Of a stretch of 64,000 nt of DNA, positions 1 through 9,694 are shown piece by piece (position 1 is the stretch's first letter; each line of letters opens with the position of its first letter). The notes below the pieces were generated by a model, which was given only the letters and a program-made list of their open reading frames with translations, searched no databases and was not told the DNA's origin. The position numbers were made by a program, and so were the translations under genes. The stretch is from Kaistella treverensis (GTDB taxonomy: Bacteria > Bacteroidota > Bacteroidia > Flavobacteriales > Weeksellaceae): NCBI RefSeq assembly GCF_900114045.1, contig NZ_FORQ01000003.1, positions 1 to 64,000 of the forward strand. Reading direction: 5' to 3'.

Positions 1-20
1 AATTTTATCTTTCCATCCAT
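1..20 (-). CDS. Possible start of a further cassette gene (partial)
   Basis: An ATG on the minus strand at 20-18 opens a frame reading M-D-G-K-I-K that runs off the window edge. It sits about 70 nt beyond the GTTA border of the leftmost hairpin site, where a cassette gene would be expected. Only six codons are visible, so this is a positional guess. Confidence 0.2.
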
Positions 21-87
21 ATTTTTGAACTTTTATTTTTGTAGATCAAGTTTTTAACTTTTAAAACCGATTTTTCGATAGCATTAC

Positions 88-220
88 AGATAACGTTCCG
101 CGGCTATGCGCCGGGCGGGGCTTTTACCCGGGATTGTTCTTTTGAAAACGCTCATTTCTCGCATCCGTAATCTGTCAACCGAAGACGGATTTCCCGCCTG
201 GCGCATAGCCGCTGTTAGCA
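88..220. repeat. attC-like recombination site A
   Basis: TAAC at 91-94 and GTTA at 214-217 border the site. The left arm 100-119 pairs with 193-212 over 20 bp with a single G.T wobble (G113 with T199). The unpaired spacer is GTTCC (95-99) on the left and one T (213) on the right. The loop is 73 nt (120-192). The short open frame that crosses the site on the plus strand is a by-product of the hairpin. Confidence 0.75.
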
Positions 221-240
221 AATGTTTTTTTATTCATTCG

Positions 241-705
241 CTATTTCAGAGTATTTATTCCATTTTTATATTCGTCCAAGCAGTATTCTTCTAGTTGGAT
301 TTTGTGATTATAAGTCGTAGTTCCTTGCTCGATTGAAATATTGATGTAAATCAGTTCTAATGTTTCTAAATTAACCAATATGTTATAACCGAAATTTTCG
401 TTTTGCTGTGAAATATCAAAATTCAAATAATATGGCATTATGTCTTTTGAATGATACCAAGACGCCAATAGCTTTATATTAGGTTTTTTGTGGATATTAA
501 AATAATAATTCATACATCTAGGAAAAACTATTTCTTTGTCATTTATTCTTAAATATTTTCTGTCTAAATCAAATTCTGCAATACCAAATTCTTTCGGCAA
601 TCCAATTATTTTTCCGTTTTCGTCAACTTTTAATAATGTGTCTTGATGTAATAAATTTGAATCAGTCAAAAAAAGAAATGATAATAAAATCAGAATTATT
701 TTCAT
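241..705 (-). CDS. Cassette gene: secreted or membrane-anchored hypothetical protein
   Basis: I do not recognise this 154-residue protein. Residues 1-16 are a hydrophobic leader after MK, consistent with a signal peptide or membrane anchor, with no Cys lipobox. The rest is a mixed polar domain rich in Asn, Tyr and Ile with no motif I can name. It is the only gene of the cassette 214-734: its ATG is 25 nt inside one border and its stop is 20 nt before the other site. No Bacteroidota promoter box is visible just upstream, so it may depend on read-through. The base composition is AT-rich. Function unknown. Confidence 0.7.
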   Translation of the reverse strand: MKIILILLSFLFLTDSNLLHQDTLLKVDENGKIIGLPKEFGIAEFDLDRKYLRINDKEIVFPRCMNYYFNIHKKPNIKLLASWYHSKDIMPYYLNFDISQQNENFGYNILVNLETLELIYINISIEQGTTTYNHKIQLEEYCLDEYKNGINTLK

Positions 706-728
706 ATGTGATTTCGTTTTAAATATTT

Positions 729-860
729 GCTAACGTTCTCGCGCTACAGGCAGTTTGGGATTAAGGAAGCGTAATCTTTCGGATTTGCCAAATCTTCCAA
801 ATACAAACCAAATTTTCCATTAAGCCAAATGCCCAAATTGCTTGTAGCGTGTGTTAGTGG
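729..860. repeat. attC-like recombination site B
   Basis: TAAC at 731-734 and GTTA at 853-856. The stem pairs 740-759 with 832-851 (20 bp including three G.T pairs when the plus strand folds). Spacer GTTCT (735-739) faces a single T (852). Loop 72 nt (760-831). The stop codon of the neighbouring cassette gene lies inside the right border core. Confidence 0.75.
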
Positions 861-1603
861 CTGTTATTTCTTTCCATTTCGGTGATTTCTATTTCAAATG
901 GCTTTTCATATTTGGCAGTTGCAATTTCTCCTAAACTCGTTTTTTTATGCGTGAAAATTATTTTTCCGTTCTTAACTTCAATTTTGTCAACTAAATAAAA
1001 TATGTCTTCATAAAAATATAAATCTTTAGTCGTTGTTTTTTGAGTTTCATTTTCTTTATCAAAATATTTTACAACAATTTTTGACAAAGTTTTTTTCGGA
1101 TTAATCATATAACCAATTTCAATTTTATATGAATTTGTTTCTTTGATTTTATAAGCGATTTCAATTTCCGTTTCAAATTTGTTTAGCAAATTTTCGACTT
1201 CAATTATTTTACCAATTTTTTCTTCATCTTTTTCGTAAAGCAAAATTAAAGTTTTGAATGTAACGTCTTTGACTAATTGATTTTTTTCAAATTCTGTAAG
1301 CGAATTAAATGATTTTGGCTCAATTCCATAATCAACATATTTTATACGTTTATCTAGAAACTTTTCGCTTTCAATTAACTCTCCAAGTTTTATGTTTTCG
1401 GTAAAGTTTATATAAATATGATCAAATTCTCCTGAAATAAAGTTCCACTCGTTAAGTTTTCTAGCAATTCGTTGACCGATTGAATTTGTGTCTTCAGTAA
1501 TATGGTAAACATTACCAATAATTCCGTCAAAATCCCCTGTGAAATCTTTTGGTTTTATTTCGTAAAAACGAATATCTTTTATTATTCTTTCGGTTGATTT
1601 CAT
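854..1603 (-). CDS. Cassette gene: hypothetical protein of 249 residues
   Basis: I do not recognise this family. The protein is soluble-looking, rich in Lys, Glu and Ile, with no signal peptide or membrane segment. The frame is open further upstream to 1693, but that extension lies inside hairpin site C, so the ATG at 1603 (M-K-S-T-E-R) just after the site is the better start. The stop codon TAA at 856-854 is part of the TAAC core of site B, so the gene fills its cassette (853-1630) completely. A lone gene in an integron-like cassette may act in stress or phage defence or as a toxin-immunity gene, but nothing in the sequence identifies which. Confidence 0.7.
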   Translation of the reverse strand: MKSTERIIKDIRFYEIKPKDFTGDFDGIIGNVYHITEDTNSIGQRIARKLNEWNFISGEFDHIYINFTENIKLGELIESEKFLDKRIKYVDYGIEPKSFNSLTEFEKNQLVKDVTFKTLILLYEKDEEKIGKIIEVENLLNKFETEIEIAYKIKETNSYKIEIGYMINPKKTLSKIVVKYFDKENETQKTTTKDLYFYEDIFYLVDKIEVKNGKIIFTHKKTSLGEIATAKYEKPFEIEITEMERNNSH

Positions 1604-1621
1604 TCGATTTCTTGTATAATA

Positions 1622-1756
1622 GCCACTAACGTTTTGCGGCTTGGCGAAGGTGGCGATTTTACCACAAATGTTCATACGAAGCACACACTTCAAATTTACG
1701 AAAAACTGTCATACGAAGTACTAAACCGCCACTTTTGCCAAACCGCTGTTAGTGGC
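1622..1756. repeat. attC-like recombination site C
   Basis: TAAC at 1627-1630 and GTTA at 1748-1751, with outer pairing extended to GCCACTAAC / GTTAGTGGC. The stem pairs 1636-1655 with 1727-1746 (20 bp, two G.T pairs, one C.A mismatch on the plus strand). Spacer GTTTT (1631-1635) faces one T (1747). Loop 71 nt. Confidence 0.75.
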
Positions 1757-1779
1757 TGGGCTTCTTTGTTTTCCGTCTG

Positions 1780-1986
1780 TCAGCAACATTTTTTGTCCTG
1801 CTGAATTGGTGGACAAGCAACACTTCCGTAACTGCAATAAACACAACAGTCGCCTTGCTTTGGTTTAAGCACTTGTTTGCATTTTTCACATTCGTAAAAA
1901 TATTGGCAAGCGTCTGTCGGCATTGTTTCTTCTTTCTTGTGTCCACAGTTGGGGCAAGTAATTGTTGATTGTAATTTGATTTCCAT
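1780..1986 (-). CDS. GDCCVxC domain-containing protein (metal-resistance associated)
   Basis: This 68-residue protein has eleven cysteines: a C11/C14 pair in a CPNCG knuckle, C33/C36 in CEKC, the signature GDCCVYC at 45-51, C58, and a terminal CC at 67-68. This matches the small GDCCVxC family, whose members sometimes have selenocysteine and often neighbour merT-type genes. It probably binds or passes a thiophilic metal, but its biochemical role is not established. It lies 6 nt after merTP and is the last gene of the mercury cassette; its stop is about 23 nt from site C. A frame on the same strand at 1749-1946 is a shadow. Confidence 0.8.
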   Translation of the reverse strand: MEIKLQSTITCPNCGHKKEETMPTDACQYFYECEKCKQVLKPKQGDCCVYCSYGSVACPPIQQDKKCC

Positions 1987-1992
1987 TTGATT

Positions 1993-2586
1993 TTATTTTT
2001 TGTCGGTTACAGAATATCCTGTTGAGTTTATTGCTTTTTCGATTTCAGAAATATTTGTTTTTGAGTTGTCAAATTCTACGATTGCGTTTCCTTTTTCGTA
2101 GGAAGCGTTTGAACTTATTATTCCTGTCAATTTATTTACTTCGTGATTTACGTGTTCGCCACAACTTGCACAAGTCATTCCGGTAATCGTAAATTCTACT
2201 TTTTGAATATTGGATTTGTCCACTACTATGATTTGCTTTTCTGTCTTTGGGTAGAAAATGCTTGAGTAGTATGGAAAGGCAAGCATTACGATTGCAAATG
2301 CTGTTACTATTCCTAAAAACATTTTTGACTGAATGAATTTTGGTTTTTCTTCTGTTTCACAATTGCAGTCAATTTGCTTTTTAGGTTTTAACTTTTGATA
2401 CCAAGCAAAACAAAGAACCAAAATTGTCAAACCGATAAAATATGGTCGGAAAGGTTCAAGCCAAGAAAAAGTTGAAGCAAGTCCGCTTGTTCCTGCAATG
2501 AGAGCCAAGACAGGTGTAATGCAACACAATGAAGCTGCAATTGCTGTTAAAAGTCCTGCTCCGATTAGTTTGTTGTCTGTTTTCAT
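1993..2586 (-). CDS. merTP: Mercuric transport protein MerTP (MerT-MerP fusion)
   Basis: This 197-residue protein has membrane segments at about 8-34, 46-62 and 88-108. The MerT-type Cys pair C21-C22 sits in the first helix and a second pair C74/C76 lies in the loop. The C-terminal heavy-metal-associated domain (about 128-195) carries GMTCASC with C139 and C142. MerT brings Hg(II) across the inner membrane and MerP-like domains hand it over. The start codon overlaps the regulator stop (ATGA at 2586-2583), so translation is probably coupled. No merA (reductase) or merB gene is in the cassette, so uptake without a local detoxifying enzyme is unusual; merA may be elsewhere. Confidence 0.9.
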   Translation of the reverse strand: MKTDNKLIGAGLLTAIAASLCCITPVLALIAGTSGLASTFSWLEPFRPYFIGLTILVLCFAWYQKLKPKKQIDCNCETEEKPKFIQSKMFLGIVTAFAIVMLAFPYYSSIFYPKTEKQIIVVDKSNIQKVEFTITGMTCASCGEHVNHEVNKLTGIISSNASYEKGNAIVEFDNSKTNISEIEKAINSTGYSVTDKK

Positions 2587-2957
2587 AATGTTTCTAATAT
2601 TTTGTTTTCGTCAAGTATTTTGAAAAACGGTTTCAGCATTTTTTCATACTCTTTTGTCAATGAGTAAAAAATGGTTTGTGCTTCACGTTCGGTTTCAATG
2701 AGCTTTCTGTCTTTGAGTTTTCGTAAGTGTTGCGAAACTGCTGAAATTGTCATACCAAGAATATCGCTTATATCACAAACACAAAGTCGTTTTTCTTCAT
2801 AAAGTAGAAATAGAATTTTCAGTCTTACGTTGTTTCCTGCCAATTCAAGTCCGTTCGATAAATACTCAAACGAGCCGTTAAGTTCTGAAACTCGGTCTTT
2901 ACAGCGGTTTATTTGTTTAATGTCCGCTTGTTGTCTTATGCAAGAATTATTGTCCAT
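2583..2957 (-). CDS. ArsR/SmtB-family metal-sensing repressor
   Basis: The protein has 124 residues. The winged helix contains RLCVCDI at 57-63, matching the ELCVCDL metal-binding box (C59, C61) of ArsR/CadC-type sensors, followed by the recognition helix SAVSQHLRKL at about 72-81. Extra Cys at 6 and 19 could add ligands. The start at 2957 is chosen because a promoter (TTG-N19-TATCTTTG) lies directly upstream, which excludes the longer frame from 3005. It presumably represses its own operon with merTP and the GDCCVxC gene and is released by Hg(II) or a related metal. Classical mer operons use MerR; ArsR-type control is the flavobacterial pattern. Confidence 0.88.
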   Translation of the reverse strand: MDNNSCIRQQADIKQINRCKDRVSELNGSFEYLSNGLELAGNNVRLKILFLLYEEKRLCVCDISDILGMTISAVSQHLRKLKDRKLIETEREAQTIFYSLTKEYEKMLKPFFKILDENKILETL

Positions 2958-2961
2958 AAGG

Positions 2962-2991
2962 CAAAGATAGTCAATTTGTTTATTTAAGCAA
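2962..2991 (-). promoter_or_regulatory. Promoter of the mercury cassette operon
   Basis: On the minus strand TTG (2991-2989), a 19-nt spacer, then TATCTTTG (2969-2962) match the Bacteroidota -33/-7 consensus. The ATG of the regulator follows the -7 box by only 5 nt, so the transcript would be leaderless or nearly so. A GC-rich hairpin with 6-bp stem at 3018-3037 lies further upstream. The cassette therefore carries its own promoter. Confidence 0.65.
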
Positions 2992-3055
2992 TTACTAAAA
3001 TACAAAATATCAAAAAGTACCCGATTTGTCTGTCGGGTTGTGTCGTCATAGCCTT

Positions 3056-3190
3056 GCCACTAACGGTTACGTATTGGCGATGGTGCGGCTTAAACGCGGA
3101 AACTTTCTTATTATAATTACTCTTCGAAACATCTAAAATGGTTCAACTTGCGATTCCTCCGCACTATTGCCAATACGATGTTATGCGTTC
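3056..3190. repeat. attC-like recombination site D
   Basis: TAAC at 3061-3064 and GTTA at 3180-3183. The stem pairs 3070-3088 with 3159-3177 (19 bp, two G.T pairs on the plus strand). Spacer GGTTA (3065-3069) faces AT (3178-3179). Loop 70 nt (3089-3158). Confidence 0.75.
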
Positions 3191-3207
3191 GGCTTTTTAA
3201 AATTTAT

Positions 3208-3729
3208 TCAATTTATGGGTTTCCAATTTCCTTTTTTAAAGTACATATTATTAAATTTATCGGAATGGAAAACTAAATAAAAACTCCAAGCGTTTCTATA
3301 AACTGTTGGATTAGTTTTTAATACATGAATTGTCGGTTGCTCCATATTTATTATAAGTCTTTCTGAACCATATGGTGCTGTTGTTGAAATTGTACCACTA
3401 AAAGTTCTTACTATTTTGTCATGATTTGTAACATAAAAATAAATTTTATCATTATTAATTTTAAATCGAAAAGTTTCATATTGCCAATCCGCCTGTTTAC
3501 CTGGGAAAAAGTCTCTGTCGATAATGTACTGTCCGTAATAGTCTTTCTTTTTTAATATTTTTTTCGCCGTTAATTTTTCCACTACTAAAGATAAAATAAT
3601 TAATCCAATCACGGAAAGCCAGAAGTATCCGATTACTTTTCCGAAAACCTTATTATTTGTTTTCCACCAGACGAAAATCATTATTCCCGTCAATGGAACT
3701 AGAAAGAAAAGAAAAAATAAAAATGCCAT
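3208..3729 (-). CDS. Cassette gene: small membrane protein, unknown function
   Basis: The 173-residue protein has two N-terminal hydrophobic segments (about 1-22 and 32-50) and a polar C-terminal domain of about 115 residues with many Tyr, Phe and Asn. I recognise no family. It is the only gene of cassette 3180-3775; the ATG is 46 nt from one border and the stop 28 nt from the other. Together with the next cassette gene (3906-4484) it has a two-helix plus soluble domain layout, but I see no clear sequence similarity between them. Confidence 0.7.
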   Translation of the reverse strand: MAFLFFLFFLVPLTGIMIFVWWKTNNKVFGKVIGYFWLSVIGLIILSLVVEKLTAKKILKKKDYYGQYIIDRDFFPGKQADWQYETFRFKINNDKIYFYVTNHDKIVRTFSGTISTTAPYGSERLIINMEQPTIHVLKTNPTVYRNAWSFYLVFHSDKFNNMYFKKGNWKPIN

Positions 3730-3766
3730 AAATTATTTATGATTATATTTCCGTCGTTTGATGCTG

Positions 3767-3899
3767 ACGCATAACGGTTGGATATTTCTGCAGGCGGGAT
3801 AAAAATACGAAAACTTTGTACTTGCTAAAAACTTAATTAACCGCTAAAATCTTCGATGAAAACTTCATACCCGCTTGTAGAAATATCTTGTTATAGGGC
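3767..3899. repeat. attC-like recombination site E
   Basis: TAAC at 3772-3775 and GTTA at 3890-3893. The stem pairs 3781-3798 with 3870-3887 (18 bp, two G.T pairs on the plus strand). Spacer GGTTG (3776-3780) faces TT (3888-3889). Loop 71 nt. This is the site closest to the recombinase. Confidence 0.75.
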
Positions 3900-3905
3900 G
3901 TTTTT

Positions 3906-4484
3906 TTATTCATCAATATCTTCAAATGTCAATTCGTTTTTATCTTTATTTATAGAGATCCTTCTAAATGTTGGTGCATAACCCTCTTGTCCACTAGGTT
4001 GGAAATACTCTCTAACAAAAGCATTTGAAGTCTCATAATTTTGCGTCACTTTAGGTCCAAAATATCTTTTGTCTGAAAGATAAAGCATTTGGTTGACGGA
4101 AGAATTGTTAGTTTTGAAATTGTCAGAATTCTTTATTTTAAAAATCGCATTTTGCTTATCGCGCGCTGAAATTTTCAACGTAAAAGTGTGATAATAGTCG
4201 CCAATTGCTAACATTGATTTGTTGTCTTGTAAATCAAATTTGTCTTTTAAAAATATTTGTTGTTCTTCAACAAGTTCTTTTGCGTTATTCGTTGTAAAAA
4301 GTTGGTCTTCAAACGCAGTCCACGGTACTATAGATAATATAAAAACTCCAAAAATTATTGTTAAATACTTTCCTGTCTTTGGGTGACCAAATTTTTTTGG
4401 AATAAAATATAATAAAAGTCCAAGCCCGATTGGAAGTCCAACAAAAACAAGAATAAAAAGCCCTATTAGTAAAATTTCGTCCAA
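3906..4484 (-). CDS. First cassette gene: membrane protein, unknown function, TTG start
   Basis: The 192-residue protein has two hydrophobic segments (about 4-28 and 40-57) and a soluble domain of about 130 residues. No family recognised. The frame begins with TTG at 4484 preceded on the minus strand by an AAAAG-like stretch; no in-frame ATG exists ahead of the first membrane helix, so TTG is the likely start. The stop lies 6 nt before the border of site E. As the first cassette after the recombinase it would be the best expressed if a common promoter exists. The leader contains a stray GTTATGCG (plus, 4505-4512), possibly a relic core. Confidence 0.65.
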   Translation of the reverse strand: MDEILLIGLFILVFVGLPIGLGLLLYFIPKKFGHPKTGKYLTIIFGVFILSIVPWTAFEDQLFTTNNAKELVEEQQIFLKDKFDLQDNKSMLAIGDYYHTFTLKISARDKQNAIFKIKNSDNFKTNNSSVNQMLYLSDKRYFGPKVTQNYETSNAFVREYFQPSGQEGYAPTFRRISINKDKNELTFEDIDE

Positions 4485-4528
4485 TCTTTTAGTTGTGTTT
4501 TTTGGTTATGCGTTCCGTCCTAAAATGA

Positions 4529-4605
4529 CCTACAACTTATTTATATGTCTTACTTCGTCAGACAAATACAACGTGTTTGGTAGGGATTTGTCTGATAGTC
4601 GTAGG
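4529..4605. repeat. Putative primary (attI-like) site next to recombinase
   Basis: A nested inverted repeat begins 36 nt beyond the recombinase stop. The outer arms CCTACAAC (4529-4536) and GTCGTAGG (4598-4605) pair with one mismatch; the inner arms are GTCAGACAAAT (4557-4567) and ATTTGTCTGAT (4586-4596). The outer arm at 4529-4536 resembles, as inverse complement, GTTATAGG at the far border of the first cassette (7 of 8). This is the expected position for the platform site, but its role is inferred. Confidence 0.45.
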
Positions 4606-4640
4606 ACTTATTTCGAATCACTAAGATATATTTTTTTCCA

Positions 4641-5684
4641 TTACAAATCATCAAACGGACTTTTTATGTGCTGTAAGCTTTTCGTGCTTACATGGGTGTA
4701 AATTTCTGTTGTTCTACTGCTGTTATGCCCAAGTAATTCCTGAATGTAACGCAAGTCAGTTCCGCTTTCCAATAAATGCGTGGCATAACTATGCCGTAAC
4801 CAATGTAAGGTAACTGGCTTTTTTATATTGCATTTTTCTAATGCTTGTTTTAATACACTTTGAAGGCTTTTTGCAGAATAAATAGTACCTGGTTCTTGAC
4901 CTTCAAATAAATACGTTTTTGGTTTGTAAAGTTGGTAATAGGTTCTTAATAATTCTAAAATCTTTGGAGACAATGGCGTAATTCTATCTCTTTTTCCTTT
5001 TGCTTGCTTAATCAGAACAATATTTCTTTTAGAATCAATGTCCAGTGGTCGTAATTGTAGTAACTCACTGCAGCGCAAACCACAACTATAAATTAAGGAA
5101 AGCATCATTTTGTGTTTCATATTGGCATGTGCTTCCAATATATTCTTTACTTCTTCTTTACTCAAAACATTTGGTAATGTTTTAGGCTTTTTGGGTCGGT
5201 CAATTTTATCTACTTCTATTTTTGTTTTACGTATTGTTCTAAAGTATAATTTGATAGCACTAATAACTTGGTTTTGGTAAGATGCGGATAATTTTTTTTT
5301 CAAAATGTAATCGTTATTAAAATCAAGTACATGTGCGTTGGTTAGTTCGCAAATAGCATTAGATTGGTAATAAACGAGAAATGATCTTAATGCCTCAGAA
5401 TAAGTTTTGATTGTATTTGGGCTATATCTTTTCGACGAGAGCCACCGGATGAATTGATTTAGATGTTGTTGTCCATCTTCCGAAAGTGTGGTGTCTTGTT
5501 TCTGTGTGATTTGGAATTTTTCTCTATTTTCTCGCGTGTCTGGGATATGCCATAGTTTTTTCTGCTGACTCCATCGCGCTCCATTAATTAGTTTTATCCG
5601 TCGGATCAACTCTTCATCTTTATCGAAAATTACCGCAATTCTATCTTGGTTTCGATGTGTAATTAATTTTGCGCTCCACTTCAT
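4641..5684 (-). CDS. Tyrosine site-specific recombinase, XerC/D-like, cassette-associated
   Basis: The protein has 347 residues from the ATG at 5684 (M-K-W-S-A-K); a longer frame to 5765 is open, but a TAnnTTT-like box (5712-5705) lies between. An N-terminal extension of about 65 residues precedes a SAM-like core-binding domain (about 70-165) and a catalytic domain. Catalytic residues: R204 (in SCGLRCSE), K229, H294 and R297 (in HWLRH), H320 (in LGH), Y329 (in IYTHV). The stretch between the Lys hairpin and box II is short as in XerD and lacks the extra insertion of IntI. Similar flavobacterial proteins are, from memory, often labelled 'site-specific tyrosine recombinase/integron integrase'. 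It probably acts on the flanking sites. Confidence 0.88.
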   Translation of the reverse strand: MKWSAKLITHRNQDRIAVIFDKDEELIRRIKLINGARWSQQKKLWHIPDTRENREKFQITQKQDTTLSEDGQQHLNQFIRWLSSKRYSPNTIKTYSEALRSFLVYYQSNAICELTNAHVLDFNNDYILKKKLSASYQNQVISAIKLYFRTIRKTKIEVDKIDRPKKPKTLPNVLSKEEVKNILEAHANMKHKMMLSLIYSCGLRCSELLQLRPLDIDSKRNIVLIKQAKGKRDRITPLSPKILELLRTYYQLYKPKTYLFEGQEPGTIYSAKSLQSVLKQALEKCNIKKPVTLHWLRHSYATHLLESGTDLRYIQELLGHNSSRTTEIYTHVSTKSLQHIKSPFDDL

Positions 5685-5972
5685 ACAGTGCTGATAATTA
5701 AATATAAAGGTATCACATTTAAAATTATAAGGTATTTCGTGGCTGCACAAAAGTATTGATAACAAGACTAGTGCCTTTTATGATGTTGAACTAAATCGCA
5801 AAAAGAGTGGTGATTCGCTAAATCTGCCCTTATTCAAAGCAATTTTTTGTTGACTGAAAACTATGTTATTTAATAAAATAGAAGCACCATATTTTAAAGT
5901 AGCGTTAAGTTAACGAACCTTTAAAATGCGTAGGAATATTACCGGAAATTAAAAGTATTTTATTTGGAAACT
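5685..5972. other. Intergenic stretch between recombinase and tRNA-Gln
   Basis: AT-rich DNA between the recombinase start and the tRNA terminator. I find no convincing gene. It should hold the recombinase promoter; the best box is TACCTTTA on the minus strand at 5712-5705, one base off TAnnTTTG. Confidence 0.5.
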
Positions 5973-6012
5973 AAAAAAATCAGGAACATTAGTCCCTGAT
6001 TTAGTCCCTGAT
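5973..6012 (-). terminator. Terminator of tRNA-Gln, with 12-bp tandem repeat
   Basis: On the minus strand the stem ATCAGG/CCTGAT (6000-5979) is followed by a run of seven T. The unit TTAGTCCCTGAT occurs twice in tandem (5989-6000 and 6001-6012), so an alternative second stem arm is available. Confidence 0.65.
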
Positions 6013-6045
6013 AATAGTAAAGTGCTGATTAACAGTACTTGTTTG

Positions 6046-6116
6046 TAGACCCACAGGGATTCGAACCCCAACTGGCGGTACCAAAAACCGAAGTGCTACC
6101 GTTACACCATGGGTCT
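6046..6116 (-). tRNA. tRNA-Gln (anticodon TTG)
   Basis: The 71-nt cloverleaf on the minus strand has a perfect 7-bp acceptor stem (AGACCCA/TGGGTCT), a D arm with AACGGTA loop, an anticodon loop TTTTGGT giving TTG (reads CAA), and a T loop TTCGAAT. CCA is not encoded. It separates the cassette array from recA and is a plausible landmark for the island edge, but I see no duplicated tRNA 3' end in the window. Confidence 0.93.
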
Positions 6117-6237
6117 GTCATTATTTTGGTGGTGCAAATCTAAAACAAATATTTTTAATTAAAAAATTATTTTCAAAATTATTTTTTAAAACCCGAAATT
6201 ATGCCTTTTTTTAGTTTTATTTCACGTGAAAATTCCG

Positions 6238-6245
6238 TATTTTTG
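6238..6245 (+). promoter_or_regulatory. -7 box of recA
   Basis: TATTTTTG fits TAnnTTTG and lies 17 nt before the recA ATG; a palindrome TTTCACGTGAAA is centred just upstream (6220-6231) and could be an operator. No clear TTG at the -33 distance. Confidence 0.5.
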
Positions 6246-6262
6246 ACAAAATAAATTTACAA

Positions 6263-7273
6263 ATGAGCAGTATTGACGATAAGAAAAAAGCACTGGCTTT
6301 AGTGCTTGATAAATTAGATAAAACTTACGGTAAAGGTACCGTAATGACTTTGGGTGACGCATCTGTTGACACCAATATCGAGGTGATTCCTTCGGGGTCG
6401 CTTGGGGTAGATTTGGCTTTGGGCGTGGGCGGTTATCCGCGCGGACGCGTCATCGAAATTTATGGACCGGAATCATCCGGAAAAACGACTTTGACTTTAC
6501 ACGCTATTGCTGAAGCGCAAAAATTGGGCGGAATTGCTGCTTTTATCGATGCAGAGCACGCTTTCGACAGAAGTTATGCGAGAAAACTAGGCATTAACCT
6601 AGATGATCTTATTATTTCTCAACCAGACAACGGTGAACAGGCTTTGGAAATCGCTGATAATTTAATCCGTTCCGGTGCTGTGGATATCGTGGTGATTGAC
6701 TCTGTGGCGGCTTTAACGCCAAAAGCAGAAATTGAAGGTGAAATGGGAGATTCCAAAATGGGACTTCACGCGAGATTGATGTCACAGGCATTGAGAAAAT
6801 TAACCGGAACCATTTCTAAAACCAAATGTACCGTGATTTTCATCAACCAGCTGAGAGAAAAAATCGGGGTGATGTTCGGAAACCCGGAAACGACAACGGG
6901 CGGAAATGCGCTGAAGTTTTACGCTTCGGTAAGGATTGATATCCGAAAAGCCAGCGCGCCGATTAAAACAGGTGATGAGGCCGTAGGAAGCCGCGTGAAA
7001 GTGAAGATTGTGAAAAATAAAGTAGCTCCACCTTTCAAAATGGCAGAATTCGACATCATGTACGGTGAAGGCATTTCGAAAACTGGTGAAATCCTGGACG
7101 CTGCCGTAGATATGGGAATTGTGAAAAAAAGCGGTTCCTGGTTCAGCTATGCGGACACGAAACTGGGTCAAGGTCGCGATGCGGTTCGTGATATGTTGAA
7201 AGACAATCCGGATTTGTCTGATGAGCTTGAAGGAAAAATCCGCGAAGAGATTAAAAACAAAAAAGAAGCTTAA
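6263..7273 (+). CDS. recA: Recombinase A (RecA)
   Basis: RecA coats single-stranded DNA and drives strand exchange and LexA-type self-cleavage. The 336-residue protein has Walker [10 protein letters not shown] at 68-76 and the conserved INQLREKIG and [10 protein letters not shown] stretches of the core. The C-terminal tail is short and charged, and the length is within the family range (about 335-350). The gene stands alone with its own -7 box and a strong terminator at 7290-7322. Identification is secure. Confidence 0.99.
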
Positions 7274-7289
7274 TCCCAACTATTTTAAT

Positions 7290-7322
7290 GATAAAAAAAA
7301 CGGCATTTTTTGCCGTTTTTTT
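7290..7322 (+). terminator. recA terminator
   Basis: AAAACGGCA / TGCCGTTTT stem with T-rich loop followed by a long T run, 17 nt after the recA stop. Confidence 0.85.
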
Positions 7323-7595
7323 TGTTTTTCACCCGGATATTTTAATTTTTGAATGAAAAAATTCCGCGTTAAATTGGTGTTTTTTTTTGTTTTTTGCTTA
7401 AACACGATTTTGGTTTCAATAGCAGCTAAAATCTGCCGGTTATTTTACCGTTTTTTTTTCGGTTTTGCTTAAACAGAGCTTGGTTAAAAAGCAGCTAAAA
7501 TTTGCCGGTTATTTAGGTGTTTTTTTAGATTTTTGCCGAATTTTGGAAATTCGGAAAATTTGGGTGGAATAACGGCTAAAAATTCTAGACGAAAA
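7323..7595. repeat. Intergenic direct repeat, two copies of about 52 bp
   Basis: No gene is seen. A unit starting TTGCTTAAACA and ending TGCCGGTTATTT occurs at 7394-7446 and again at 7465-7515 with a few substitutions and a small length difference. The T-rich spacer between units is also similar. A weaker third half (GGCTAAAAATT) is at 7573-7583. Confidence 0.6.
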
Positions 7596-7730
7596 GGAAA
7601 ATTAGCACGCAAGCCGCAATAGGGATAGCAACGGAAACCCCGGACCCGCCGCGCGGGGAGGAGTTGCAGTGAATATCCCGGTCCCCTTGGCCGGCGCCGC
7701 AGGCGCCGGCCAAGGGAATTGCCCAAAATC
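7596..7730 (+). repeat. GC-rich dispersed intergenic repeat, copy 1
   Basis: A GC-rich island in an AT-rich gap. It holds the core ATAGCAACGGAAAC, a CCGCGCGG palindrome, and a perfect 15-bp hairpin (7684-7698 with 7702-7716, loop GCA), ending in TTGCCCAAAAT. Similar core and tail occur at 11257-11365, 13030-13148, 23900-23985 and 51285-51375. Confidence 0.6.
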
Positions 7731-7804
7731 TTGACAAAATGTCACTTTCTGCAGATTGGTGTTCTATTTGAGATTTCCCTCGCATAACATAAAAATCACT
7801 TAAA

Positions 7805-9694
7805 ATGACACAAGGAAATATTAATGTCTCGGTGGAAAATATTTTCCCCTTAATCAAAAAGTTTCTCTACAGCGACCACGAAATATTTTTGCGTGAGCTG
7901 ATTTCTAACGCGACAGACGCGACTTTGAAGCTGAAACACCTGACCAGCATCGGTGAAATAAAAACCGACTACGGTACACCGAAAATTGAAGTTGCGATCG
8001 ATAAAGACGCGAAAACGCTTACGATTTCTGACCAGGGAATCGGGATGACGGGTGCTGAAGTTGAAAAATACATCAACCAAATTGCATTTTCAGGCGCTGA
8101 AGAATTCTTGGAAAAATATAAAGATACTTCGAAAGATTCCGGAATTATCGGTCATTTTGGACTTGGATTTTACTCTGCGTTTATGGTGGCGGAAAAAGTG
8201 GAAATCGTAACCAAATCTTACAAAGACGAACCTGCTGTGCGTTGGATTTGCGACGGAAGTCCGGTTTATACTTTGGAAGAAGCCGACAAAACCGAGCGCG
8301 GAACGGATATTATTTTGCACATCGCTGAAGATTCTACGGAGTTTTTGGAAGAATCCAGAATTCGCGAGCTGCTTTTGAAATACAATAAATTTATGCCGGT
8401 TCCGATTAAATTCGGGACGAAAACGGAAACTTTACCTTTACCGGAAGATGCTGCTGAAGATGCAAAAGCCGAAAATGTGGAAGTGGACAATATCATCAAC
8501 AATCCGACTCCAGCGTGGACAAAAGCGCCAAGCGAGCTGACTGACGCGGATTACAAGCAGTTCTACCACGAGCTGTACCCAATGCAGTTTGAGGAGCCTT
8601 TATTTAATATTCATTTGAACGTGGATTATCCGTTCCATTTGACCGGAATTTTGTATTTCCCGAAACTGACCAACGGCTTAAACATTGAGAAAGATAAAAT
8701 TCAGCTCTACCAAAATCAGGTGTACGTGACCGATGAGGTGAAAGGAATTGTGCCGGATTTCCTCATGTTACTGCGCGGTGTCATCGATTCTCCGGATATA
8801 CCGCTGAACGTTTCCCGTTCATATCTTCAGGCGGACGGCGCGGTGAAAAAAATATCGTCTTATATCACCAAAAAAGTGGCGGACAAAATGGTTTCATTAT
8901 TCAATGAAAACCGTGAAGATTACGAGAAAAAATGGAATGACATAAAAATCGTCATCGAATACGGAATGATTTCCGAAGATAAGTTCTTTGATAAATCAGA
9001 CAAATTTGCACTGTATCCAACCACCGACGGAAAATATTATTTATGGTCTGAACTGGAAGAAAAACTGAAACCAAAGCAGACTGACAAAGACGGAAATTTC
9101 GTGCTTTTATACGCGACAAATGAACACGAACAACATAGCTACGTTCAGGCCGCGAACGACAAAGGTTATGAAGTTTTGTTACTTGATTCACCAATAGTTC
9201 CGCATTTGATTCAGAAATTAGAAACTTCGAAAGAGAAAATTTCTTTTGCACGCGTTGATGCGGATCACCTAAACAATTTGATTAAAAAAGAAGATGCAGC
9301 GATTTCTAAACTCAATGAAGAGGAAAAAGAATCTTTGAAGAAAAATATTGAAGAAGCGGTGAACGATACTAAATTTTCAGTACAAATCGAGGATTTAGAA
9401 AGCACCGAAGCACCGTTTATGATTACGCAGCCGGAATTTATGCGCCGTATGAAAGATATGCAGGCGACCGGCGGCGGTGGAATGTTCGGCATGGGCGGTT
9501 TCCCGGAAATGTATAATTTGGTGGTAAATTCGAACAGCGAACTTGCTTCCGAAATCCTGAAAAATCAAAATGCAGAAGAGAAAAACACCAAAATTAAATA
9601 TGCTTTAGATTTGGCGAAACTTTCTCAAAATTTGTTGAAAGGAAAAGACCTGACGGATTTTATACAAAGAAGTTATCAGCAGTTGAGTAAGTAA
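7805..9694 (+). CDS. htpG: Molecular chaperone HtpG (Hsp90)
   Basis: The 629-residue protein shows the GHKL ATPase motifs in order: ELISNATDA at 31-39, DQGIGM at 76-81 and GHFGLGF at 116-122. The middle and dimerisation domains follow, with a Gly/Met-rich stretch about 555-570. HtpG is the cytosolic ATP-dependent Hsp90 of bacteria, helping client proteins fold under stress. The gene is monocistronic, with a GC-rich repeat upstream and a terminator at 9738-9776. Length is normal. Confidence 0.98.
   Translation: MTQGNINVSVENIFPLIKKFLYSDHEIFLRELISNATDATLKLKHLTSIGEIKTDYGTPKIEVAIDKDAKTLTISDQGIGMTGAEVEKYINQIAFSGAEEFLEKYKDTSKDSGIIGHFGLGFYSAFMVAEKVEIVTKSYKDEPAVRWICDGSPVYTLEEADKTERGTDIILHIAEDSTEFLEESRIRELLLKYNKFMPVPIKFGTKTETLPLPEDAAEDAKAENVEVDNIINNPTPAWTKAPSELTDADYKQFYHELYPMQFEEPLFNIHLNVDYPFHLTGILYFPKLTNGLNIEKDKIQLYQNQVYVTDEVKGIVPDFLMLLRGVIDSPDIPLNVSRSYLQADGAVKKISSYITKKVADKMVSLFNENREDYEKKWNDIKIVIEYGMISEDKFFDKSDKFALYPTTDGKYYLWSELEEKLKPKQTDKDGNFVLLYATNEHEQHSYVQAANDKGYEVLLLDSPIVPHLIQKLETSKEKISFARVDADHLNNLIKKEDAAISKLNEEEKESLKKNIEEAVNDTKFSVQIEDLESTEAPFMITQPEFMRRMKDMQATGGGGMFGMGGFPEMYNLVVNSNSELASEILKNQNAEEKNTKIKYALDLAKLSQNLLKGKDLTDFIQRSYQQLSK

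Follow-up and report, generated by a model that had tools for sequence, protein, structure and literature searches.

What moves the genes that lie between the hairpins at the start of contig NZ_FORQ01000003.1 of Kaistella treverensis? The window, i.e., the first 64 kb of this contig (C7 of the 10 contigs of a 2.38-Mb genome), opens with a row of minus-strand genes that are separated by long hairpin sites and that start next to a tyrosine recombinase. An earlier note, made from the sequence alone, had described this row as an integron-like cassette array served by a Xer-type recombinase. We found an array of integron-type cassettes at positions 1-4536, and the locus as a whole is very probably an integron-type cassette-capture system with a Xer-like tyrosine recombinase in place of the integron integrase IntI, a reading based on sequence comparison. 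The system comprises a recombinase, an attI site, attC-like sites and a unit bounded by G^TT; it has cassettes common to several genomes and arrays, and differing cassettes at a fixed locus.

Read along the minus strand, the locus runs from the recombinase (5684-4641) through attI to five cassettes, each closed by a hairpin site, and the array is truncated by the contig end. The recombinase is co-directional with its cassettes, as the earlier note had stated; the five hairpins named there are the ends of the five cassettes, and attI is an extra element adjoining the recombinase. This attI (about 4534..4615) is a conserved block with a repeated motif (TCAGACAAAT/ATTTGTCTGA/AAGACATATAA) and the end TATAAATAAG^TT, with its probable cut between G4536 and T4535. 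Cassette 1 (3775..4535; ends GTTGTAGG / CCTATAAC, 1 mismatch) holds an open reading frame (ORF) of 192 amino acids (3906-4484) and is closed by site E (3768..3897), which scores 107.4 bits with R1, a site model built from 44 chosen sites, the window's five included. Cassette 2 (3064..3774; ends GTTATGCG / CGCATAAC) has an ORF of 173 amino acids (3208-3729) with a sub-threshold match to CBO0543, followed by site D (3057..3187; 94.6 bits). Three genes lie in cassette 3 (1630..3063), i.e., an ArsR-type regulator (2583-2957), a MerTP mercuric transport protein (1993-2586) and a GDCCVxC protein (1780-1986), ahead of site C (1623..1755; 91.4 bits). Cassette 4 (734..1629; ends GTTAGTGG / CCACTAAC) encodes 249 amino acids (854-1603) and ends in site B (727..860; 88.1 bits), and cassette 5 (94..733; ends GTTAGCAA / TTGCTAAC) encodes 154 amino acids (241-705) and ends in site A (87..221; 69.5 bits). 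The ORFs of cassettes 1, 4 and 5 match no family. Only the start of a sixth cassette (1..93) is present before the contig end cuts it.

The five sites are hairpins of about 125 nt with a single design, and all five are read on the minus strand. A scanner for paired arms between TAAC and GTTA, run on both strands of the window, gave five hits, which are these five sites, and 3 hits in total on 20 Markov-resampled windows. R1 matched exactly the same five at E ≤ 0.01, so that the common design claimed in the earlier note stands. In the usual design, YAAC is followed by 1 to 4 nt, 7 to 10 pairs, an A.C mismatch, 2 to 3 pairs, a further A.C mismatch and more pairs; a middle part of about 60 nt leads to the mirror of the left arm, and GTTR follows after another 5 to 7 nt. 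In site A the scanned arm counts 13 pairs and a single A.C mismatch. Like attC, the sites are imperfect hairpins with an unpaired spacer, which is lopsided (typically 1 nt vs 5 nt). No Rfam family was found on them at E ≤ 1. The host genome has 28 R1 sites at E ≤ 0.01, spread over contigs C3, C6, C7 and C10.

In an arm alignment of 201 distinct sites, with gaps allowed, the arms are gap-free in 172 and have a gap in 29, and 341 mismatches are A.C vs 14 that are C.A. These 172 sites are free of bulged bases in the aligned arms and thus lack the extrahelical stem bases of IntI attC sites. When folded, the opposite strand was more stable than the cassette strand in 82 of 107 clean distinct sites, drawn from a total of 214 after exclusion of 42 duplicates and of 65 that failed an ungapped clean rule. 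In attC sites used by IntI, strand choice is directed mainly by the first extrahelical base, according to the part of PMC2727003 drawn on here.

The boundaries of the cassettes follow a simple rule: the five bases that follow GTT at one site, when reverse-complemented, give the five that precede AAC at the next. This is the arrangement of IntI integrons, where the cut falls between G and TT of GTTRRRY and the two ends of a cassette are complementary. Among 155 neighbouring pairs, all five bases match in 98 (vs 2.1% for random pairs) and at least four in 110 (vs 10.6%). These pairs come from 230 model matches, which left 214 refined sites once 16 without AAC or GTT in place were removed; 2 more sites lacked full flanks. 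Matches at four or more bases were found in 93 of the 115 pairs under 1.5 kb and in 17 of the 40 pairs further apart; where wider-spaced pairs match poorly, an intervening site may have been missed. The rule also holds in six arrays that diverge from their recombinase (see below), where 111 of 135 pairs match at all five bases vs 4.6% by chance.

The same logic locates attI. Downstream of the stop codon, the window and 20 orthologues have a block of some 130 nt in common, which ends in TATA....AGTT with few exceptions. Past this end the 21 sequences diverge, except that L038, L039 and L052 share one short element and L044 and L045 (one genome) another. We sought GTT in the 260 nt behind the recombinase stop at the 48 loci whose first site is no more than 3.5 kb away. 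In 29 of them the five bases that follow such a GTT are an exact fit to the first site, with 1.3 expected. This GTT lies 80-143 nt behind the stop in 28 of the 29 (228 nt in L066) and is nearly always preceded by TATA; that of the window, 104 nt behind the stop, fits at four of the five bases. Such a pattern suggests an attI adjoining the integrase gene with insertion at G^TT, also in the divergent group, whose different attI lies before the recombinase start and is typically GCGTATATTTGAGAGTT (seven genomes; G032 deviates). Behind the stop of several orthologues stands TATATTTG, which we take to resemble the Bacteroidetes -7 box.

Gene content changes behind attI. In genome G026, of another Kaistella species, the stretch formed by a recA-like ORF (6263-7273, plus strand in the window), tRNA-Gln (6045-6116, minus strand), recombinase and attI is 92% identical over 2748 nt, and BLAST homology stops at 4521, 13 nt beyond GTT. 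No other match above 150 nt to window positions 1-8000 occurs within the 20 kb compared. A fixed chromosomal locus thus carries different cassettes, and content behind attI also differs in most orthologues, the variation that the earlier note had proposed to look for. (The name recA is our assumption from the sequence.)

Single cassettes, in turn, recur in other surroundings. Cassette 2 is present in Chryseobacterium sp. SNU WT5 (99.8% over 596 nt), where it starts at the same GTT and the bases directly before differ. The mercury region of cassette 3 is matched in 24 of 119 genomes, own included, and lies as a cassette within the arrays of G010, G034 and G044. That of G010 has the same site C up to GTTA and is 99.0% identical over the aligned 1559 nt, which include a related preceding site, and the bases directly before the first GTT again differ from the window. 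In the mercury cassettes of G034 and G044 the attC differs in part or entirely, and the two cassette ends of G044 changed jointly (TAGTGG/CCACTA to TAGCGG/CCGCTA). In G011 and G008 the mercury copy has no site behind it and adjoins an apparent worn right half. Further afield, cassettes of a Kaistella (L036) and a Belliella (L119) have different sites but share 90% identity over 937 of 1050 nt.

Do the sites belong with the recombinase? In 80 named loci of recombinase homologues, all 162 R1 matches at E ≤ 0.01 are on the recombinase strand and all lie downstream of the recombinase, with one exception (L118:5539). The 82 matches in 14 further sources, most of which also supplied sites for R1, are all on the recombinase strand as well. 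Of the 80 named loci, 48 reach 2 kb or more past the recombinase, and 43 of these have a site at E ≤ 1e-5; the other 32 loci end sooner, and 3 of them have a site. Across 119 genomes, own included and with at most 28 candidates per genome scored, sites were found in 60 of the 61 with a recombinase match at E ≤ 1e-60 and in 20 of the 58 without one (Fisher p 3.6e-15). A model of the hairpins finds them behind this recombinase in many Bacteroidota. The earlier note had called the system flavobacterial; it is present there, and its range is wider, with homologues and sites in records named Pedobacter, Belliella, Algoriphagus and Cyclobacterium, among others. By contrast, R1 had a single weak match (E 0.11) in 110 kb of sequence from 30 canonical IntI loci of this phylum.

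Hairpins are common between genes on one strand, and one recurrent element of these arrays does have a terminator-like hairpin. The sites might then be terminators or scattered palindromes between genes acquired by other means, with the recombinase a bystander, an account that we find scarcely credible in view of the flank rule, the attI cut point, the cassette starts in other genomes, the one-strand polarity and the association with the recombinase. Terminators, scattered palindromes and miniature inverted-repeat transposable element-like repeats were rejected on the flank rule and the cassette starts, and sites spread without a link to the recombinase were rejected on the strand and position of R1 matches and on the genome counts. 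Neither sites occurring genome-wide without such a link nor an identical gene order in all relatives, the two patterns named in the earlier note as contrary to capture, was seen.

The integron-type reading raises the question of which enzyme does the work. The window recombinase (4641..5684, minus strand, 347 amino acids) has an N-terminal domain of about 60 residues with W38 and W45, followed by SAM-like and catalytic domains. R204, K229, H294, R297, H320 and Y329, which we take to be the catalytic residues, are invariant in 40 aligned homologues (33 rows of group 1, the window type, and 7 of a second type, group 2), and so are W38 and W45. The insertion of about 40 residues that marks IntI is absent. 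The Box I Arg and the Box II His are 89-90 residues apart in 94 of the 99 ORFs of group 1 and 89 apart in all 11 entered as group 2, vs 131 in 28 of 29 canonical IntI; the host's two other Xer-like proteins have 92 and 96. (The set covers 99 of 101 group 1 loci, 3 with another spacing and 2 with none, and 29 of 30 IntI loci; some group 1 loci were entered twice, under a genome handle and a named record.) The presence of two further Xer-like genes in the host (L003, L004) and the patchy distribution of this type (61 of 119 genomes at E ≤ 1e-60, groups 1 and 2 combined) argue against a housekeeping XerC/XerD role.

Could this nevertheless be a canonical IntI integron whose integrase is merely poorly recognised? 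The family models look both ways. The protein scores 222.6 bits with NF040815 (cut-off 220), titled by NCBI "site-specific tyrosine recombinase/integron integrase", which is also the automatic name of a close homologue, and 208.9 bits with the integron-integrase model TIGR02249, below its cut-off of 265. Integrons share the G^TT rule and the site ends (YAAC...GTTR), and a structure model of the recombinase (predicted local distance difference test 83.3, predicted template modelling score 0.57; N-terminus bb-a-bb-a) has IntI4 (2a3v) among its best Foldseek matches, behind two XerA entries at the top. Canonical IntI is above cut-off in 84 of 296 genomes of the phylum; among 86 listed genomes with matches, one (G151) is of the window's class and the rest are of other classes. 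Against this stand the spacing, the TIGR02249 score, the sites without a bulged base and the phylogeny. In a tree of 43 rows (20 of group 1, 10 of IntI), the IntI rows form one clade (100/100) that excludes the window recombinase, group 2 a clade of 8 (100/100) and group 1 a clade (97/92) that includes L035, entered as group 2, and a metagenome-assembled genome titled Fibrobacter. We consider a canonical integron very improbable and rejected it on score, missing insertion and tree position, which also upholds the earlier description of the recombinase as a non-IntI enzyme. Several branching orders of the IntI, group 1 and group 2 clades are compatible with these data, and with them both alternatives of the earlier note, separate evolution and distant kinship with IntI: approximately unbiased tests for one clade gave p 0.365 for groups 1 and 2, 0.029 for group 1 and IntI, 0.182 for group 2 and IntI, and 0.081 for all three.

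Group 1 recombinases are co-directional with their arrays, as in the window. Those of group 2, about 38-46% identical and represented in the host genome by a copy at C5:763-1791, are divergent from their sites in L002, L025, L027, L028, L029 and L033. Divergent arrays can be large: G032 has 48 sites in 35 kb (46 of them on the same strand), G013 has 44 in 32 kb and G026 has 24 in 26 kb; G029 has 17, G015 and G027 have 5 each, and the G034 stretch (L202) has no site. Among these genomes G015 and G034 are in the tree, and the others count as group 2 by identity (39-44%) and orientation. In the arrays of G032 and G013, 77 of 80 ORFs lie on the site strand. A PADLOC and Pfam search of 73 of the 80 (3 on the opposite strand and 4 short ones were excluded) found, at E ≤ 1e-5 with PADLOC and in one protein each, PD-Lambda-1, SAVED-HNH, SduA and endonuclease effectors among others, and Pfam matches that include immunity proteins.

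One site model matches the sites beside both groups, and with a paralogue in its own genome the window recombinase might be idle or specialised while the second recombinase (G000:C5:763-1791) moves the cassettes in trans. Two group 1 genes have one in-frame stop (L047 in G017, L023 in G039; possibly decaying copies). The window gene is open, though, with its invariant residues kept and a protein 100% (rounded) identical to that of G026, and its attI is unlike that of the divergent recombinases. We therefore regard action in trans as unlikely, if less so than a canonical integron, and favour the window recombinase as the probable mover of its own integron-type array.

How would such a system work? 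The recombinase would bind attI, whose last bases are TATAWRYRAG^TT, just behind its own gene, and also the folded single strand of a cassette attC. Strands would be exchanged between G and TT; a circular cassette would thereby open as TT-gene-attC-G and come to lie beside attI, and its genes would probably be read from a promoter in the gap between recombinase and attI. IntI uses its insertion for hairpin recognition, and strand choice there is mainly by extrahelical bases. Here, the choice would probably be made by the in-register A.C mismatches, which are T.G wobbles on the other strand, and by the lopsided spacer, and the additional domain at the N-terminus may assume the task of the IntI insertion in recognising the hairpin. 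A rough motif for this domain occurs in 77 of 99 group 1 proteins, 2 of 11 of group 2 (for which it is too narrow, W38 and W45 being invariant in aligned group 2), none of 29 IntI and neither of 2 Xer.

Several observations weigh against parts of this picture. Some concern the association: at E ≤ 1e-5 a site is missing from 5 of the 48 named loci that extend 2 kb or more past the recombinase, G084 lacks sites despite its recombinase match, and sites occur in 20 of the 58 genomes that have no match at E ≤ 1e-60. Others concern the boundaries. As many as 45 of 155 pairs match at three bases or fewer (22 of the 115 under 1.5 kb, 23 of the 40 further apart), and cassette 1 of the window has one mismatch with its site among the five flank bases. 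The copy of cassette 2 in Chryseobacterium sp. SNU WT5 (G009) has its site broken directly behind CGCATAA, so its 3' end is not sharp, and the site preceding the mercury cassette of G010 shares the right arm, which leaves a single sharp end. One gene can have a different attC across genomes (L036/L119, cassette 3/L180), i.e., site and gene are not always kept together; either replacement of sites or a faster change in sites than in genes seems to be at work, which bears on how cassettes obtain their attC. The site statistics are also partly circular: RNAalifold on the 44 chosen sites gave 12 pairs with both-sided changes in 11, counts biased towards structure by the choice of these sites with paired-arm scanners, and R1 derives from the same 44, which the 14 further sources and loci L057-L059 contain or repeat. 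Finally, the N-terminal part is absent in some group 1 proteins (L129; L118, L120 and L131 match only from residue 48-78), and its link to HARP is weak, a lead. Pfam HARP stayed below its gathering score (19.2 bits vs 25, E 8.8e-4) in L119 (Belliella), the only one of 8 N-termini to match; two further N-termini, the window's included, gave no HARP match, and the window's gave DUF5710 at 21.6 bits vs 26.5. The HARP structure 4o66 ranks 1-2 in Foldseek with weak scores (E 0.70 and 0.79; probability 0.38 and 0.35) and is absent from the 50 best VIA-align rows.

The DNA that interrupts the cassette 2 site of G009 looks, we presume, like the end of a group II intron (L038:8080-8260), and a group II intron maturase gene lies in the plasmid array of the same strain (L170:23765-25081).

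Copies of the system are also mobile. Group 1 recombinases are found on plasmids of Chryseobacterium sp. SNU WT5 (7 R1 sites in the stretch) and C. oryzae (1). On pHH1107, a relative (48.7% over residues 81-347) lies directly upstream of tet(X3) and co-directional with it; an apparent left half-site follows tet(X3) (within L188:610-2730; 17 bits, not significant alone). Another relative is directly upstream of blaVEB-3 on an Aeromonas plasmid (L189), where the stretch preceding the gene has an attI-like end, TATTAGGGAGTT, followed by AGCGG. The blaVEB-1, -18 and -16 cassettes of three plasmids end in CCGCTAAC, and their attC is matched by R1 (L190:1608-1742, L191:2408-2542 and L192:1608-1742; 35.2 bits, E 1.8e-6); the cassette start GTTAGCGG is kept in two of the three. 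L191, which also has aadB, arr-2 and what follows them, gave no other R1 match at E ≤ 10. Judged by the neighbours aadB, arr-2 and qacEdelta1-sul1, the three contexts appear to be class 1 integrons. By its sequence the blaVEB attC is of the Bacteroidota site type, and the Bacteroidota system is a possible donor of the clinical blaVEB cassette. For Chryseobacterium, catB, tetX and aadS have been reported near XerD, with "integron" as a keyword and in a reference only, in the portion of PMC11194056 considered here.

Some further features accompany the arrays. In an element of about 175 bp without an ORF, a site without spacer comes after a terminator-like hairpin (GTTGGGAAAAATCG...CGATTTTTCCCAAC); the element occurs once in L038, twice in L042 and four times in the plasmid stretch L039, and L052 has the same start. 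A degenerate direct repeat unit of about 48 nt (AAAATTTGCCGGTTATTT...) occurs two to three times at window positions 7357-7543, behind the recA-like gene, and further on, at 7608-7687, the Flavo-1 RNA is matched weakly (25.5 bits vs a cut-off of 42). Sites or recombinases lie at or near one end of five host contigs (C3, C5, C6, C7 and C10), and arrays have probably caused these assembly breaks.

What does this mean for integrons at large? They are in practice recognised by an IntI with its extra domain. Here, ordinary Weeksellaceae have arrays with as many as 48 sites, some copies are carried by plasmids, and the recombinase appears to work without that domain. How a tyrosine recombinase acquires the ability to act on folded single-stranded sites, and whether this happened twice, can thereby be tested. 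A concrete origin can also be offered for the blaVEB cassette and for those resistance genes of Bacteroidota that have an unexplained "XerD" next to them. More speculatively, and as a proposal to which we give slightly less than even weight, Bacteroidota would hold a second superclass of integrons: Xer-derived integrases in two groups, with an N-terminal HARP-like hairpin reader replacing the IntI insertion, a T.G/A.C code in attC and an origin apart from IntI, sharing G^TT with IntI so that cassettes cross between them, and being the source of blaVEB, and probably of tet(X), in class 1 integrons and mobile elements.

Among the matches listed in the open-access literature, covered as titles and abstract starts with subscription papers and preprints outside, no description of such a system in Bacteroidota was found. 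The sections consulted of PMC8618304 and PMC9668308 name Bacteroidota among the phyla with integrons, and for Bacteroidetes proper the relevant part of the IntegronFinder 2.0 paper (PMC9024848) gives formerly In0 elements only and then one complete integron, in Salinibacter ruber. The insertion is described, in an excerpt of PMC8138268, as not fully conserved in an "integron-like" subgroup yet essential for integron function. Archaeal integrons (Ghaly 2022, PMC9668308) are, like the present one, integrons outside the classical hosts, but as far as that source was covered their IntIs have the specific additional domain that the window recombinase lacks. The "xerD-tet(X3)" arrangement of Acinetobacter (PMC7494873) has a relative of the recombinase upstream of tet(X3) and co-directional with it on pHH1107; in the part of the paper used the gene is called xerD, and the stretch seen has no surrounding array. 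XerA-type recombinases (NF040815; 4a8e, 5hxy) are the best PDB sequence matches and top Foldseek matches and also have no IntI insertion, but the alignment starts at query residue 70-75, behind the N-terminal domain. We know of no cassette arrays for them. With IntI integrons, chromosomal (sedentary) or mobile, the system shares an integrase gene, an adjacent attI, tandem and mostly one-ORF cassettes on one strand, hairpin attC sites with YAAC...GTTR ends, the G^TT cut and complementary cassette ends. It differs from them in a recombinase that lacks the IntI insertion and carries a further domain at its N-terminus, in mostly unbulged attC arms with A.C mismatches and a spacer of typically 1 vs 5 nt, and in a group 1 recombinase that is co-directional with its array and has attI behind its 3' end, whereas the recombinases of group 2 have the classical divergent orientation.

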